Shown: piece by piece, positions 21,129 to 29,624 of the stretch
Numbering within the stretch: position 1 is the stretch's first letter
How the letters are laid out: the number at the start of each line of letters is the position of its first letter
Source of the DNA: Snodgrassella alvi wkB2
GTDB lineage: Bacteria; Pseudomonadota; Gammaproteobacteria; Burkholderiales; Neisseriaceae
DNA length: 64,000 nt
Assembly (NCBI RefSeq): GCF_000600005.1
Contig: NZ_CP007446.1
Location: 310,001 to 374,000 of the forward strand
Reading direction: 5' to 3'
The notes under the pieces: generated by a model
Seen by the model: the letters and a program-made list of their open reading frames with translations, nothing else
Told to the model about the DNA's origin: nothing
The model's database searches: none
Program-made: the position numbers and the translations under genes

Positions 21129-22862
21129 TCAATAATTAACAGATAATGCTTGTTTTTGAAAACTATAGAGCTTAGTAAATAAACCATTATTGTCCATCAA
21201 GTCTTGGTAATTACCTTGTTCCGCAATTGAGCCTTTATCCAGAACAATAATATTATCCGCACCGATAATCGTTTTTAAACGATGAGCAATAACGATTACA
21301 GTCCTGTCTTTGACCAGACTGGCGATTGCTTCCTGAATATAAATCTCATTTTCAGGATCCAATGAGGCGGTAGCCTCATCAAGCAAAATAATAGGAGCAT
21401 TTTTTAATAATGCTCTGGCAATTGAGATTCGTTGCCTTTCACCGCCCGATAATTTACTGCCGTTTTCACCTATTAAGGTATTCCAGCCATCAGGTAATCG
21501 GGCAATTAGTTCATCACATCTGGCTATTTTAGCGGCAAGTTTGACTTCTTCATCAGATGCATTATGCCTTCCGATGCGAATATTGTTCATAATCGTATCA
21601 TCAAACAATACCACCTGTTGGAAAACAAAAGCCATTGAATGCATCAAGGTTTCAGGGTCAATTTGCTTAATATCGAGATTACCAATGGTAATCCTCCCCG
21701 AATTTACATCCCAAAAGCGCGCAATCAATTGTAATAAAGTACTTTTACCACTACCTGATGGTCCAACTAATGCTGTCATTTTTCCTTCCGGAATAGTGCA
21801 GCTTAAATTATTAATAACGTTTATTTGATTGTAGGAAAAATTAACATGATCAATATTGATAGTATGATTAGCAAAAGTCACATCTTCTTTTCCTTCCATA
21901 ATAGACTCAGTTTGTAAACTCCTCATTCTATCGATTGAAACAAGCATATAAAACAGCTCGGGTAATAATGTCAAAATAGAAATCAGAGGGCTATAAATTC
22001 GTGAACTGATAATAACAAAGGCAATAAAAGTAATTGGATTTAAGCTGCCAGAAACCATCAGCGAAACACCGAGTAAAACCACTATGCCTAAACCGACTTG
22101 TAATGTCATAGTAGACAAAGTGACAATAATTCCTCCTATTCCTTCAAACTTAATTGATGCCCACATCATTTTTTTAAGGGCTTTATCCAGACGTTGGAAT
22201 TTTTTACCACTTATTCCGTAACCTTTGATAATTTTAATACCATCCAGATATTCCTGAACTTCGTCGGAAACAATTAATTTAGCCTGAACATGTTTTTCAC
22301 CAAATTTTTGTTCAAGTCTTTTACCAATAACAACAATAATAATAGAAATCGGCAGAGTACAAAAAATAGCACCAGCCATCCGCCAATCATAAAATGCCAA
22401 TAAACAACAAGTTATCAGACTGCTGATTGAATAACCGATTAATTGAGGTATCACATGGCTAAGCATGTTTTCAATAACGGCACAATCACCCATAATATTA
22501 GCCGTAAGTTCAGAAAGATCTTTTCGGTTGAAAAAACTAAGCGGTAGTTTGCGGATTTTTTCAGCAACTTCAATTCGGGTATTGGCAGCCAGACTAACAG
22601 CATTAGCGTAAGTTTTTTCATATTCTCTTTTATAACAAAATAAGAATAATAAGGCTGAAACTACGCCTGCTCCCGCCATAATCCATAAGTAATTTATATT
22701 TACAGGAATTTGGTCAGTTAATGGCTTAATTAGCAGGATAATTATCTGTAATAAAATGACAAACGGTAACATTAATGTCAAATTAGAGATGATACAGGCG
22801 ATAATAGCTTGATTAAGATTTTTATTCTCTGCATCAGACAACATCAATAATTTTTTAAACAT
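21129..22862 (-). CDS. ABC half-transporter, ATP-binding/permease (YbtQ/IrtB-like)
   Basis: About 577 residues from ATG 22862 (a longer start at 22877 is possible). An N-terminal exporter-type membrane domain with about six helices is followed by an ATPase with Walker A GPSGSGKST, Q-loop FVFQQVVLF, signature LSGGERQRISIARALL and Walker B IILLDEATASLD. It overlaps the preceding ABC gene by 8 nt, so the two products most likely form a heterodimer. Pairs of this kind (YbtP/YbtQ, IrtA/IrtB) import iron-siderophore complexes despite their exporter fold. The Fur box before the operon supports an iron role. Confidence 0.82.
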   Translation of the reverse strand: MFKKLLMLSDAENKNLNQAIIACIISNLTLMLPFVILLQIIILLIKPLTDQIPVNINYLWIMAGAGVVSALLFLFCYKREYEKTYANAVSLAANTRIEVAEKIRKLPLSFFNRKDLSELTANIMGDCAVIENMLSHVIPQLIGYSISSLITCCLLAFYDWRMAGAIFCTLPISIIIVVIGKRLEQKFGEKHVQAKLIVSDEVQEYLDGIKIIKGYGISGKKFQRLDKALKKMMWASIKFEGIGGIIVTLSTMTLQVGLGIVVLLGVSLMVSGSLNPITFIAFVIISSRIYSPLISILTLLPELFYMLVSIDRMRSLQTESIMEGKEDVTFANHTINIDHVNFSYNQINVINNLSCTIPEGKMTALVGPSGSGKSTLLQLIARFWDVNSGRITIGNLDIKQIDPETLMHSMAFVFQQVVLFDDTIMNNIRIGRHNASDEEVKLAAKIARCDELIARLPDGWNTLIGENGSKLSGGERQRISIARALLKNAPIILLDEATASLDPENEIYIQEAIASLVKDRTVIVIAHRLKTIIGADNIIVLDKGSIAEQGNYQDLMDNNGLFTKLYSFQKQALSVNY

Positions 22863-24687
22863 ATGCCACCTCATCATCTTGACCAGACTGATACATTTGC
22901 CAATTTAATGTTTGCTTATAGTATTGCCACATTTTGTAATAGGTATGATGCTTATCAATTAGCTGCTCATGCGTTCCTTTTTCAACAATTCGACCTTTAT
23001 CTAATACCACAATTTGATTTGCATCTTTTATTGTTGATAAACGATGAGCAATCATAATAACGGTTTTACCCTGCATCAAAACTTTCAAGGCAAGCTGAAT
23101 TTTGTATTCATTTTCAGGATCAGCAAAAGAAGTGGCTTCATCAAGAATTAAAATAGGTGAGTTTTTTAATAATGCGCGGGCGATTGCTAAACGTTGCATT
23201 TCACCGCCTGAAAGATGCAGTCCTTTAGTACCTATTACCGACTGATAGCCGTCTGGCAGCTTTTCAATAAATTCGTGACATTGTGCAGCTTTAGAGGCGG
23301 CAATAACTTCATCTAACCGGGCATCGGGTTTGCCGATTTTAATATTATCTAAAATAGTTTGTTTAAAGAGAAAAACATCCTGAAACACAAAACTCACTAA
23401 CGACAATAAATACTCACTTTTCATTTGCTTAATATCTACACCACCAATCGTTATCGAACCTTCATCAGGATCAAAGAAGCGAGGAATAAGCAATGAAACT
23501 GTACTTTTACCACTGCCGGAAAGCCCAACCAGAGCAGTAGTTGTTCCTTGTTTTGCCGTAAACGAAATGTGATTTAGCGCATTATTTTCTGAAGCCTCGC
23601 TACCCTGAATCTTATTGTAGGCAAAAGTGACATCATTAAAACCAATATCATAATGATTTACTTCTAAACCGAATTCGGGTTCAGCTAAAGGTTTTACGTT
23701 TAAAACACTATCCATATTTTCAACGCTTTTAACTGCTTTTTGAAGGCCCTGAGAAACATACATCAGTTTTAAAAAAGGCGCTGGTAACGCCAGTGAGAAA
23801 ATTAAATAAAAAATAGAAGCTAAGATAAAATTTGCATAATTATCTACAGAACCGAGTAAGAAAATTATTACCGGGAGAATAAAAAGATAGATGTTATTTA
23901 ATATCAGTAGAAAAAATGCCATATGATATTTAAAACAATCAGTAAACTTAAGGCAAAATACTTGATACGCTTTGATTGACTCATAAAAGCGTTTAAATGA
24001 GAAAAAAGTTTGATTGAAAGCTTTTACAACAGCAATACCACGAATATATTCAACTGAAGCATTACTCATATCAATGAGTCGATTTTGAAACTCCTGCATA
24101 TGGTTTTTAATATCTTTACGACGGTAGCCGCTTATCAAAACAATATAAGCCAAAATAATGGGTACTAGCGTTGCCAACCCTAAACGCCAGTCAAAAACAG
24201 CTAAAATAATTAAAATGATAATCGGAGTCGCAAACGAACCAACCATATCAGGGAGTTGATGAGCAATAAAAATTTCTATCTTTTCAATATCATCATCAAC
24301 GATTTTTCGTAACTCTCCACTCGAATGTTCAGTATAAAATCCTAATGGTAAATATGATAAATACCGAACGAAATTATATTTCAAATAGTAAAGCGTTTTA
24401 AACGCAGCAATATGCGAGAAGCAGAGTGCAAGGAAATTAAAAAATAGCGACAATGCAGCCGCAATAAAAGCCAGCCAACCATAATGAATAATAAGCCCGT
24501 TATTTAATACGTCCTTATTGGCTAAACTCATTATTAATTCGTAAACAATATAATAAACCGAAATAAAAGGGATAAAAGCAGTAGCAACACTTAAAACTGA
24601 AAATAAACAAGATAAAATAATTAAAATTTTATTTTTAAAGGTGAGTTGCCAAAGTCGAAAAGCAGGACTGTTATTACACGGTTTCAT
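22855..24687 (-). CDS. ABC half-transporter, ATP-binding/permease (YbtP/IrtA-like)
   Basis: 610 residues: membrane domain with about six helices, then an ATPase with Walker A GLSGSGKST, Q-loop FVFQDVFLF, signature LSGGEMQRLAIARALL and Walker B LILDEATSFADPENE (SFAD rather than SALD, often seen in this subgroup). The coupling segment SSGELRKIVDDDIEKIEIFIAH resembles YbtP/IrtA-type proteins. It is the first gene of the unit; the start ATG 24687 lies about 20 nt from a Fur box overlapping the promoter. The substrate (siderophore, haem-like or other metallophore) is not visible; no receptor or biosynthesis gene is nearby. Base composition is more AT-rich than the flanks. Confidence 0.82.
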   Translation of the reverse strand: MKPCNNSPAFRLWQLTFKNKILIILSCLFSVLSVATAFIPFISVYYIVYELIMSLANKDVLNNGLIIHYGWLAFIAAALSLFFNFLALCFSHIAAFKTLYYLKYNFVRYLSYLPLGFYTEHSSGELRKIVDDDIEKIEIFIAHQLPDMVGSFATPIIILIILAVFDWRLGLATLVPIILAYIVLISGYRRKDIKNHMQEFQNRLIDMSNASVEYIRGIAVVKAFNQTFFSFKRFYESIKAYQVFCLKFTDCFKYHMAFFLLILNNIYLFILPVIIFLLGSVDNYANFILASIFYLIFSLALPAPFLKLMYVSQGLQKAVKSVENMDSVLNVKPLAEPEFGLEVNHYDIGFNDVTFAYNKIQGSEASENNALNHISFTAKQGTTTALVGLSGSGKSTVSLLIPRFFDPDEGSITIGGVDIKQMKSEYLLSLVSFVFQDVFLFKQTILDNIKIGKPDARLDEVIAASKAAQCHEFIEKLPDGYQSVIGTKGLHLSGGEMQRLAIARALLKNSPILILDEATSFADPENEYKIQLALKVLMQGKTVIMIAHRLSTIKDANQIVVLDKGRIVEKGTHEQLIDKHHTYYKMWQYYKQTLNWQMYQSGQDDEVAYV

Positions 24688-25290: not shown

Positions 25291-27087
25291 TCAGCTAATA
25301 TCCAGCACTGCATGGAATGCAGCTTGAGGAATATCTACACCGCCAAATTTACGTTGTCTGACTTTATTATCCTTTATATTTTTAGCAATTTTTCTCTTTT
25401 TGGATAGAGAGCCGGAATATCCTTTTCCGGTTACGCTTTTTCGTAAGGGCGGAATATCCTCACGCGCAATAACTCTGTTTTCAACCACAGACTGAACTGG
25501 CATGGGATATAACTTGCGCGGAATCACATGCTTCATTTTCAGAGCTATTTGCTTACCGCGTTCATAACTACTGCTGCGCGGTAAAATAAATGAAAATGCA
25601 TCTACTATTTCATCATTCAGCCAGATATCCATTTTCACAAGATCAGACGCAATATAACATCTGTCGCGGTAATCAACTGAAGCATAACCATGCGTGATGG
25701 ATTTTAGTGAATTGAAAAAAGTATAGGCAATTTCAGAAATCGGCAGCTTAAAAAATAGTTCCGCCATTTTATTATTGAGGTAGGTCATATCAACGAATAT
25801 GCCTCGCTTTTCCTGGCACAGATTCATAATTTCGCCAATATTTTCCACAGGAATAATAATGGCTGACTCAATAAAGGGTTCTTCAATGGAAGCTATTTTT
25901 TCAAAACTCGGTAACAATGTCGGATTATTTACCGTTATTATCTGGCCATTCGTAAGCGTTACTCGATACTCAACACTGGGAAACGTAGAAATAATTTCAA
26001 TACCATGCTCCCGTTCAAGTCTTTCCTGAATAATTTCCATGTGCAAAATGCCTAGAAAGCCACATCGAAAGCCACTGCCAAGTGCCAGAGAATTTTCCTG
26101 TTGATAAACAAAGGCCGAATCATTCAGAGCCAGTTTTTCTATCGCATCGCGCAGCTTTTCCTGTTCCTCATTTTTAATAGGAAACAAGCCTGCATATACC
26201 ATGGGTTTAACATCTTTATATCCGGGTACGGGCGGAGTGTCTGGTGCATTAATATCAATTAATGTATCACCAACTTTCACATTGGACACCACCTTTATAT
26301 TAGTAGAAATATAACCTACCTCGCCCGCAACAAGCGTTTCAACAGACCTCATTTCAGGCAGAAATACACCAATCTGTAATGCTTCAAACTCCAGTTCACT
26401 TTTGATCATTTTAATTTTCTGACCATTAGTCACCGAACCATTGAAGATACGGACATGCAGAACTACACCACGATACATATCGTAATGCGAATCAAAAATT
26501 AAAGCTTGAAGAGGACGATTCTGCTCACCACTAGGTGCCGGTATTTCTTTAACAATAGCATTCAGAATATTATCGACTCCGGCCCCTGTTCTGGCCGAAG
26601 CCAATATAATATTATCCAGATTAATCCCATCCAGCTCTTCGAGCTCTTTGGTAACACGTTCTACATCCGCATTTGGCATATCAATCTTATTGATAACCGG
26701 AATAATCGTTAAATTCTGTTCCTGCGCTAATTTTAAATTAGCAATAGTCTGAGCCTGCACTCCCTGTGTGGCATCAATCACCAATAATGCCCCTTCACAA
26801 GCGGCTAAACTGCGGGAAACTTCATAGGCAAAGTCAGTATGACCGGGTGTATCAATCAAATTAAGTTCATACTCAGCCTGATCTTCGGCCTGATAATACA
26901 TGCGCACAGTCTGGAGCTTAATAGTAATACCGCGCTCTCTTTCAAGCTCCATATTATCTAATAATTGCTCTTTCATTTCTCTTTCGCTGACCGTTTTTGT
27001 CATTTCAATTAACCTGTCAGCCAGCGTAGATTTACCATGATCAATATGAGCAATAATACAAAAATTTCTAATATTATTTAGGTTCAT
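25291..27087 (-). CDS. LepA/EF4-like translational GTPase, divergent accessory copy
   Basis: 598 residues with complete LepA architecture: G1 AHIDHGKST (13-21), RERGIT (50-55), DTPGH (79-83), NKID (133-136), domain II, domains III/V and the EF4-specific C-terminal domain. EF4 back-translocates or rescues stalled ribosomes. Several stretches (REMKEQLLDNMELERERGIT, PLQALIFDSHYDMYRGVV) look more like Firmicutes LepA than neisserial LepA. The C-terminal tail reads GYSGSLSKKRKIAKN where canonical LepA has CYGGDITRKKKLLEK. lepB does not follow, unlike the usual lepA-lepB operon. A MerR regulator is divergent. I infer a second, regulated, horizontally acquired LepA; the housekeeping copy would be elsewhere. 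Confidence 0.82.
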   Translation of the reverse strand: MNLNNIRNFCIIAHIDHGKSTLADRLIEMTKTVSEREMKEQLLDNMELERERGITIKLQTVRMYYQAEDQAEYELNLIDTPGHTDFAYEVSRSLAACEGALLVIDATQGVQAQTIANLKLAQEQNLTIIPVINKIDMPNADVERVTKELEELDGINLDNIILASARTGAGVDNILNAIVKEIPAPSGEQNRPLQALIFDSHYDMYRGVVLHVRIFNGSVTNGQKIKMIKSELEFEALQIGVFLPEMRSVETLVAGEVGYISTNIKVVSNVKVGDTLIDINAPDTPPVPGYKDVKPMVYAGLFPIKNEEQEKLRDAIEKLALNDSAFVYQQENSLALGSGFRCGFLGILHMEIIQERLEREHGIEIISTFPSVEYRVTLTNGQIITVNNPTLLPSFEKIASIEEPFIESAIIIPVENIGEIMNLCQEKRGIFVDMTYLNNKMAELFFKLPISEIAYTFFNSLKSITHGYASVDYRDRCYIASDLVKMDIWLNDEIVDAFSFILPRSSSYERGKQIALKMKHVIPRKLYPMPVQSVVENRVIAREDIPPLRKSVTGKGYSGSLSKKRKIAKNIKDNKVRQRKFGGVDIPQAAFHAVLDIS

Positions 27088-27127
27088 ATTCCCATTCTTT
27101 CAGATTTTATTCATTTAATAGGCATTA

Positions 27128-27160
27128 AATGTAATAATTAGAGTAACTCGAAGTCAAGCT
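27128..27160 (-). promoter_or_regulatory. MerR-type promoter/operator of the LepA-like gene
   Basis: On the minus strand TTGACT (27157-27152) is followed by an 18-nt spacer to TACATT. The spacer contains an imperfect dyad, TTCGAGT/TACTCTAA, centred on GAGTAACTC (27141-27149). A long spacer with a dyad between -35 and -10 is the hallmark of MerR-activated promoters. It faces the LepA-like gene. Confidence 0.7.
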
Positions 27161-27221
27161 TAATATCCCGTCTTTACTAATTGTGATATTTTGTTGATTT
27201 ATAAAACTAAAGAGGTAAAAA

Positions 27222-27659
27222 ATGGTGGATTTACAGGATTGTATTTTATCAATAGCCAATAATGGGCAGTTAAGCCTCAAACCCAAATATTCCGTAACCG
27301 AAGCGGCTCAAATTCTTGGATTATCAGCACATACTCTGCGCTATTACGATTCCCTTAATCTATTCCCGTTCTTACAGAGAGATCTGTATGACAAAAGATT
27401 TTTTTCAGATGCAGATTTACAATGGGCTAAATTAATCGAGTGTTTACGCAACGCCAATATGTCCATAAAAGATGTTCAACACTATGTAGAGCTCTGTTTG
27501 CAAGGAGACAAAACACTGGATCAGCGGCTGAATATAATTAGCCAGCAAGAACAAAAGCTGTTCGACACCATGGAAACATTAAAAAAGCAAATAGCATTGT
27601 TGAGATTTAAAAAAGAATACTATGAAAATGCTAAACTCAAAAAAGACCTTGATAAATAG
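27222..27659 (+). CDS. MerR-family transcriptional regulator
   Basis: 145 residues: winged helix-turn-helix YSVTEAAQILGLSAHTLRYYDSLNLFPF (about 23-50), the wing with DKRFFSDADLQW, a linker with CLRNANMSIKDVQHYVELC, then a dimerisation coiled coil to the C-terminus (QQEQKLFDTMETLKKQIALLRFKKEYYENAK). It has no Cys-rich metal site, so it is closer to the BmrR/AdhR-like branch. Divergent from the LepA-like gene across a MerR-style promoter; it most likely activates that gene. The effector is unknown. Confidence 0.87.
   Translation: MVDLQDCILSIANNGQLSLKPKYSVTEAAQILGLSAHTLRYYDSLNLFPFLQRDLYDKRFFSDADLQWAKLIECLRNANMSIKDVQHYVELCLQGDKTLDQRLNIISQQEQKLFDTMETLKKQIALLRFKKEYYENAKLKKDLDK

Positions 27660-28081: not shown

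Positions 28082-29624
<1,543 letters not shown>

Follow-up and report, generated by a model that had tools for sequence, protein, structure and literature searches.

LepA (EF4) is nearly universal and is normally encoded by a single gene, two copies having been found in one of 191 genomes (PMC1780047), and the lepA gene of E. coli can be deleted without an obvious growth defect (PMC4245954). The job of LepA is disputed despite its near-universality. Among the regulators of the MerR family, NmlR and AdhR carry an absolutely conserved cysteine, Cys54 and Cys52, respectively, that is required for the response to formaldehyde (PMC4776306). In the bee-gut bacterium Snodgrassella alvi wkB2 (genome G000, 2,527,978 bases), we identified a complete second lepA gene facing a divergent merR gene within a stretch of 64,000 nucleotides (G000:C1:310001-374000; hereafter the window). 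For this gene, and for the rare LepA subfamily to which its product belongs, we propose the label lepA2 or LepA2. It is highly probable that LepA2 is a regulated second EF4, and the locus as a whole is best explained, with a confidence slightly short of even, as a transferable two-gene module in which a specialised second EF4 stands under its own NmlR/AdhR-like regulator. A natural second form of EF4 that has a dedicated facing regulator, is plasmid-borne in distant bacteria and is altered mainly in the domain turned towards the peptidyl transferase centre would link EF4 activity to a condition that can be defined, and the lepA2-merR pair is a new handle on the role of EF4/LepA.

The gene itself has already been tabulated, hence it is not new: Table 2 of Cornet et al. 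2022 gives a 598-residue LepA (GC_00001818) as specific to S. alvi and stars it as a possible transfer (PMC9239279), and this entry is very probably lepA2, with the same length, the same species and the possible-transfer star. In the available parts of that paper GC_00001818 is named LepA only, and a second copy, a regulator or a subfamily is not mentioned. A search of Creative Commons-licensed PubMed Central papers did not find the merR-lepA pair, its operator or a second class of LepA, and the available parts of PMC4494060 and PMC5599536 hold nothing on a second lepA.

LepA2 shares with ordinary LepA (the E. coli protein and the other copy of the same genome) the domain set, the G motifs, the catalytic-type histidine and the predicted fold, but it differs in facing a MerR regulator, in the replacement of CYGGD and the helix that follows, and in the motifs LYPxPxQ and D[IV]PPLRK. 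As a mobile and regulated translational GTPase it resembles the tetracycline ribosome-protection proteins (TetM class), a comparison of working mode only, whereas its sequence and domains are those of LepA (tet_protect model, 169 bits; cut-off 775). The lepA2 gene (25291-27087, minus strand) encodes 598 residues with the G1, G3 and G4 motifs and the catalytic-type His83, the equivalent of E. coli EF4 His81 in the DTPGH motif (codon 26839-26841, minus strand; alignment and passages of PMC4339808). The curated LepA model TIGR01393 scored 853 bits (cut-off 533.9), and the Pfam domains GTP_EFTU, GTP_EFTU_D2, EFG_C and LepA_C were above threshold, in agreement with a first-pass annotation of this DNA that had described a LepA with all domains and G motifs; domain III (EFG_III) was matched below the Pfam threshold (21.5 against 27). 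The predicted fold agrees with the EF4 structures: the mean predicted local distance difference test score (pLDDT) was 81.6, with values below 50 at residues 551-561 and 569-581, and the ten best PDB matches were all LepA/EF4.

Another complete lepA was identified at G000:C1:1259420-1261201, the product of which is 46-47% identical to LepA2 and scored 997 bits with TIGR01393, so that the window gene is an extra copy, and the own-genome search rules out that it is the only one. The first-pass annotation had expected a housekeeping lepA elsewhere in the genome and had noted the absence of lepB from the window locus. Both points were borne out: no lepB stands beside lepA2, and a signal-peptidase-like open reading frame (ORF; recognised by eye, with no family search) adjoins the other copy. 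The same annotation had reserved the simpler reading of a housekeeping copy for a genome with no other lepA and a protein grouping with neisserial LepA; a second lepA is present and the trees described below keep LepA2 separate. The GC content at third codon positions (0.34 for lepA2 against 0.37 for the other copy) is uninformative as to recent transfer, and this was dropped as a criterion.

Across an intergenic region of 134 nucleotides from lepA2 lies merR (27222-27659, plus strand), encoding a MerR regulator of 145 residues whose helix-turn-helix domain MerR_1 scored 56 bits, as the first-pass annotation had proposed. The predicted lepA2 promoter consists of a -35 box TTGACT (27152-27157, minus strand), found by consensus match and identical in all ten Snodgrassella and Orbaceae loci, and a -10 box TACATT (27128-27133, minus strand; TATAGT in the Orbaceae loci) at a distance of 18 bp, a spacing that is the same in the window and its relatives. 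The boxes and the dyad in the spacer claimed earlier for this promoter are thus present, but not the long spacer. The presumed MerR operator, detected by sequence comparison, is the 7-1-7 dyad TTCGAGT-T-ACTCTAA (27138-27152, minus strand), which carries one mismatched pair in the window and is perfect in the nine Orbaceae loci, L044 among them; its centre base is A in genome G066. The best-conserved intergenic stretch reads CTTGACTTAGAGT-T-ACTCTAACxATTATAGTT, from which the window departs in a few positions. The centre of the dyad lies 7 nucleotides from the -35 box, as it does at MerR-family sites (PMC5045206). In the window, the combination of a TTGAC box and a dyad of this kind occurred once, against a mean of 0.26 in 50 mononucleotide shuffles, which by itself is weak evidence, and the operator claim rests instead on the conservation of the dyad in 10/10 loci. 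When seven of the ten known LepA2 genomes and genome G007 of the same genus were searched for the 26-nucleotide site with up to three mismatches, each of the seven gave one match with zero mismatches, always at lepA2, and no second site within three mismatches; none was found within that limit in G007, where lepA2 survives as a decayed piece. With one site per genome, MerR is most likely a dedicated local regulator of lepA2, and a global regulator is ruled out for the genomes searched. The regulation of lepA2 by MerR is therefore well supported by comparison of the loci.

The nearest solved relatives of the window MerR are the NmlR chains of Haemophilus influenzae (PDB 5E01, 5D8C and 5D90; E 2.6e-27), and NmlR (NF041849) is also its best NCBIfam model, with a score of 76.5 bits, for which reason we call it NmlR-like and not NmlR. 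Cys7, Cys74 and Cys92 are present in all ten aligned MerR orthologues, the window one included. Cys74 (codon 27441-27443, plus strand) is aligned with the cysteine within LLQCLKN of the H. influenzae chains, and to judge from the chain offsets it is probably the same residue as NmlR Cys54 and AdhR Cys52; the numbering of the chains is shifted by one or two, presumably because of tags. Like NmlR and AdhR of Bacillus subtilis the window MerR is short and has the aligned cysteine, but it differs from NmlR by about 18 additional N-terminal residues, and its neighbour in all ten loci is lepA2 instead of adhC, adhA or estD. A MerR paralogue of the same genome (L172, G000:C1:2292956-2293348), 34% identical and adjoining genes for flavodoxin-fold and GNAT proteins, lacks a cysteine at the site aligned with Cys74.

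In the genus, intact lepA2 is confined to one of 14 genomes (G000), which is also the only one of 83 genomes of the family to pass E 1e-203 with LepA2, and decayed pieces were found in two others, G007 and G013. The G007 piece, which carries stops, shares 59% identity with LepA2 in a stretch of 90 residues, compared with 31% for the other LepA, and sits between a nadC/modD-like gene (by eye) and the rrn operon, as lepA2 does in the window; this remnant at the same place suggests that lepA2 was probably there before these Snodgrassella species split. Among the best 80 of 204 relatives in a LepA2 scan of genome_contigs, four Gilliamella matches stood at 84-85%, followed by a fall to 53%. In the Orbaceae, 9/44 genomes carry lepA2, at 83-85% identity, each of them with an ordinary copy as well. 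Between Snodgrassella and Gilliamella the identity is 83.8% for LepA2 against 68.7% for the ordinary LepA, as expected for transfer between lineages, which had been suspected from the window alone; the transfer is not recent, because the synonymous sites are saturated. A LepA2 profile run against 398 Pseudomonadota genomes (379 matched at E<=1e-200, 19 not; three candidates scored per genome) gave 1119 bits for lepA2 and no more than 820 for the best match elsewhere, with two matches in one genome only in G000. As no further member was found in these genomes, a wide spread of LepA2 in this phylum was rejected. Carriage of lepA2 by phages was also rejected: the DNA pattern of the LepA2 signature gave no exact match in viral_contigs, and in 118 phage records with a LepA match one reached 60-80% identity, covering little, the rest staying below 60%.

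The search for conserved MerR and LepA neighbourhoods that the first-pass annotation had proposed was rewarded, with merR divergent to lepA2 in 10/10 Snodgrassella and Orbaceae loci, and no match to the window MerR (E 1e-5) at the other LepA loci then examined, within flanks of up to 5 kb. The only gene clusters common to all nine Orbaceae loci are merR and lepA2, and the flanks vary as if the pair were inserted at more than one spot. Among these loci (L042-L045 and L176-L180), a mukB-like gene was seen in four and a transporter pair in four, both recognised by eye, and neither in L176. In four Orbaceae pairs the nonsynonymous rate (dN) was 0.03-0.07 at a synonymous rate (dS) of 0.57-1.96 for lepA2, and 0.05-0.11 at 0.57-1.56 for merR, values that indicate purifying selection on both genes; these counts omit the near-identical pair L042/L177 (dN 0.005, dS 0.10) and two Snodgrassella pairs in which the synonymous sites are saturated.

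In a first tree, LepA2 was separate from the ordinary LepAs and lay close to the LepAs of Rhizobium and Nicoliella plasmids. In a tree of 38 rows, the seven LepA2 rows were split at 100/99 from 31 other LepAs, which were taken as housekeeping although the source records of some are classed as plasmids or phages. Removal of the C-terminal domain, under a site-heterogeneous model, left the split in place at 96/90. When rooted with TypA, LepA2 formed one clade (100/99) near Bacteroidota (80/91), outside both Firmicutes and Proteobacteria; the TypA root is 5 changes per column away, leaving the depth of the split unsure. The Firmicutes-like origin suggested by the first-pass annotation is not upheld by these trees, nor by the raw identities, which are equal for Paenibacillus and for Saprospiraceae LepA (53%) and 46% for the other copy of the same genome.

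The LepA2 proteins share two motifs, LYPxPxQ and IARxD[IV]PPLRK, represented in the window by LYPMPVQ (residues 526-532; 25492-25512, minus strand) and IAREDIPPLRK (residues 540-550; 25438-25470, minus strand), and they lack CYGGD. In place of AKCYGGDxTRKKKLLEKQKxGKK of other LepAs stand residues 551-575 (25363-25437, minus strand; alignment and passages of PMC4339808), with GYSGSLSKKRKIAKN where other LepAs have CYGGDxTRKKKLLEK; Tyr557 is retained and the first glycine of the Gly-Gly linker is changed to serine. The departure of the C-terminal tail, already noticed in the first-pass annotation, holds for all ten Snodgrassella and Orbaceae copies, none of which has CYGGD, and the near-universal LepA trait that is absent from LepA2, the YGGD linker with its basic helix, lies outside the curated definition of the family. 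The altered domain is the part of EF4 that reaches the peptidyl transferase centre (PMC4339808). In a tally of loci, 24 LepA2 loci, equivalent to 12 distinct genes because loci repeat, had both motifs and no CYGGD and five were cut before the C-terminus, whereas 161 other LepA loci had CYGGD and neither motif, eight had LYGGD or CYCGD, and one was not recovered; Leuconostoc was left out of this tally. A DNA pattern of IARxD[IV]PPLRK, designed from these same LepA2 sequences, was found in 26/222 loci, all of them LepA2, Leuconostoc included. Of 129 columns conserved at 95% or more in a panel of 36 rows, the Snodgrassella and Orbaceae LepA2 differs at seven, four of them at residues 567-571; the panel contained the LepA2 of Rhizobium and Nicoliella, so that the seven mark the Snodgrassella/Orbaceae branch only. 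Taken on these alignments and trees, LepA2 is very probably a real separate subfamily, a LepA group of its own that has plasmid-borne relatives and a rebuilt C-terminal domain. Elsewhere in the protein, DTPGHTDF is present in 10/10 Snodgrassella and Orbaceae LepA2 (threonine codon at 26836-26838 of the window), and valine takes the place of this threonine in the 36-row panel and in the Leuconostoc plasmid copy.

The plasmid-borne relatives adjoin regulators or enzymes of several kinds, and LepA2 of all four lineages scored above the TIGR01393 cut-off. On a conjugative Rhizobium plasmid (L201), lepA2 overlaps the end of a MarR gene (best model MprA, under its cut-off) and is divergent from genes for a resistance-nodulation-division (RND) efflux pump. 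A Nicoliella plasmid from a stingless-bee isolate carries lepA2 beside a zinc alcohol dehydrogenase gene. The Nicoliella protein, used as a query, matched 14 records of Leuconostoc plasmids, and of the 13 listed, 10 came from kimchi. On these plasmids lepA adjoins genes for an HxlR-family regulator (best model RrpB, under cut-off), two thioredoxins and an NAD(P)-binding protein, as well as for a CsoR-type repressor domain, a metallo-beta-lactamase (MBL) protein and a fusion of an oxidoreductase with a rhodanese domain, the best model of which, CoA-disulfide reductase, was under its cut-off. The Leuconostoc plasmid lepA was seen among thiol-redox genes in L213, L214, L215 and L220. The match was in two pieces in 8 of the 13 listed records, and in both of these that were inspected, L215 and L220, lepA is annotated as two ORFs.

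We infer that lepA2 is switched conditionally, and likewise by which stress. MerR would sit on the promoter spacer and keep lepA2 low until its Cys74 reacts with a thiol-reactive electrophile such as an aldehyde, methylglyoxal or a quinone, upon which the reacted MerR may distort the promoter and turn lepA2 on. LepA2 would then bind the ribosomal A site like EF4 and hydrolyse GTP, presumably through His83, and its altered C-terminal part might read or remodel the peptidyl-tRNA or the peptidyl transferase region of stress-stalled or damaged ribosomes, in addition to the action of the other LepA. The retention of the tyrosine together with the change of linker and helix points to an EF4 that is still active on the ribosome and meets the end of the peptidyl-tRNA differently, presumably one made when its regulator is triggered. 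That the function of LepA2 differs from that of ordinary LepA is rather probable. Since two distinct LepA2 lineages adjoin regulators of the thiol type, thiol-reactive stress is the first choice as trigger; the chance that a thiol or electrophile is the inducer falls a little under even, because the Rhizobium neighbours argue for drugs. A stronger version is unlikely, in which LepA2 is a horizontally spread EF4 class switched by thiol sensors, whose rebuilt C-terminal domain rescues ribosomes damaged by electrophiles, which would make it a GTPase of translation dedicated to this stress. The electrophiles would be compounds such as methylglyoxal or plant quinones in the bee diet and garlic and mustard compounds in kimchi, and the damage would lie in the nascent chains, the ends of tRNAs or the region of the peptidyl transferase.

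Several observations weigh against the two-gene module with a thiol-sensing regulator. The score of the NmlR model on the window MerR is far below its cut-off of 175 bits, so that the inducer may differ from that of NmlR, and the 18-bp spacer falls within the normal range of 17+/-1 and is shorter than the 19-20 bp usual for MerR promoters (PMC9909328). No glyoxalase or adhC was recognised beside merR-lepA2 in Snodgrassella and Orbaceae, where the neighbours were inspected by eye and a family search was made for the window ATP-binding cassette (ABC) pair alone. In Rhizobium the MarR gene and the RND pump point to drugs rather than to thiol stress, and the dehydrogenase beside the Nicoliella lepA2 is of unknown substrate. 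The S. alvi-specific list, in its available part, has the 598-residue LepA but no MerR of 145 residues (PMC9239279). A Listeria record (L197) has an annotated MerR-family gene, not compared with the window MerR, just downstream of and convergent with an ordinary lepA, and a MerR gene near lepA is therefore not special by itself. The LepA2 branches are long (1.2-1.5 for Leuconostoc), which makes the inner order of the group unsure. Finally, the case is built on sequence and structure prediction.

These long branches also feed the suspicion that the subfamily is an artefact, in which fast copies attract each other, the motifs are convergent, and the Snodgrassella gene stems from a single old transfer of a housekeeping LepA that was not sampled. 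The 38-row tree had just 31 other rows, with plasmid or phage records among them, and contained no housekeeping LepA of Lactobacillaceae or Rhizobiaceae. This reading is nevertheless very unlikely, for two motifs and the loss of a third are common to the LepA2 lineages and found in none of the other LepAs tallied, and the split persists without the C-terminal domain under the site-heterogeneous model. LepA2 might also do the same job as ordinary LepA and be just a switchable extra dose for stress such as cold, salt or acid, a reading that the retained G motifs and His83, the TIGR01393 scores of all four lineages and the fold matching EF4 structures would fit; we regard it as rather unlikely in view of the shared changes at near-invariant C-terminal positions in a gene under purifying selection.

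About equally improbable is an inducible role of LepA2 in ribosome protection or tolerance towards an inhibitor of the peptidyl transferase site, such as an antibiotic of a neighbour, with a TetM-like logic exerted through the EF4 C-terminal domain and with the drug or its stress sensed by the regulators. The plasmid location of the relatives, the MarR gene (best model MprA, under its cut-off) with the RND pump at the Rhizobium copy, and the location of the change where EF4 reaches the peptidyl transferase centre (PMC4339808) speak for it, but the regulators in the other lineages, NmlR-like or of the HxlR family, belong to the thiol-stress type, and no resistance gene was recognised by eye beside the Snodgrassella and Orbaceae pair, although the window has a pair of ABC exporter genes downstream. 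An anti-phage role was rejected after PADLOC gave no match for LepA2 and two weak matches for MerR, a result that bears on phage defence only.

With regard to the surroundings of the locus, the 16S gene starts at 28082, beside merR-lepA2, and the two ABC exporter genes (21129-24687) lie between the nadC/modD-like gene and lepA2. In the corresponding locus of G007 (L175), about 0.7 kb separates the nadC/modD-like gene from the rrn match, without the two ABC exporter genes.

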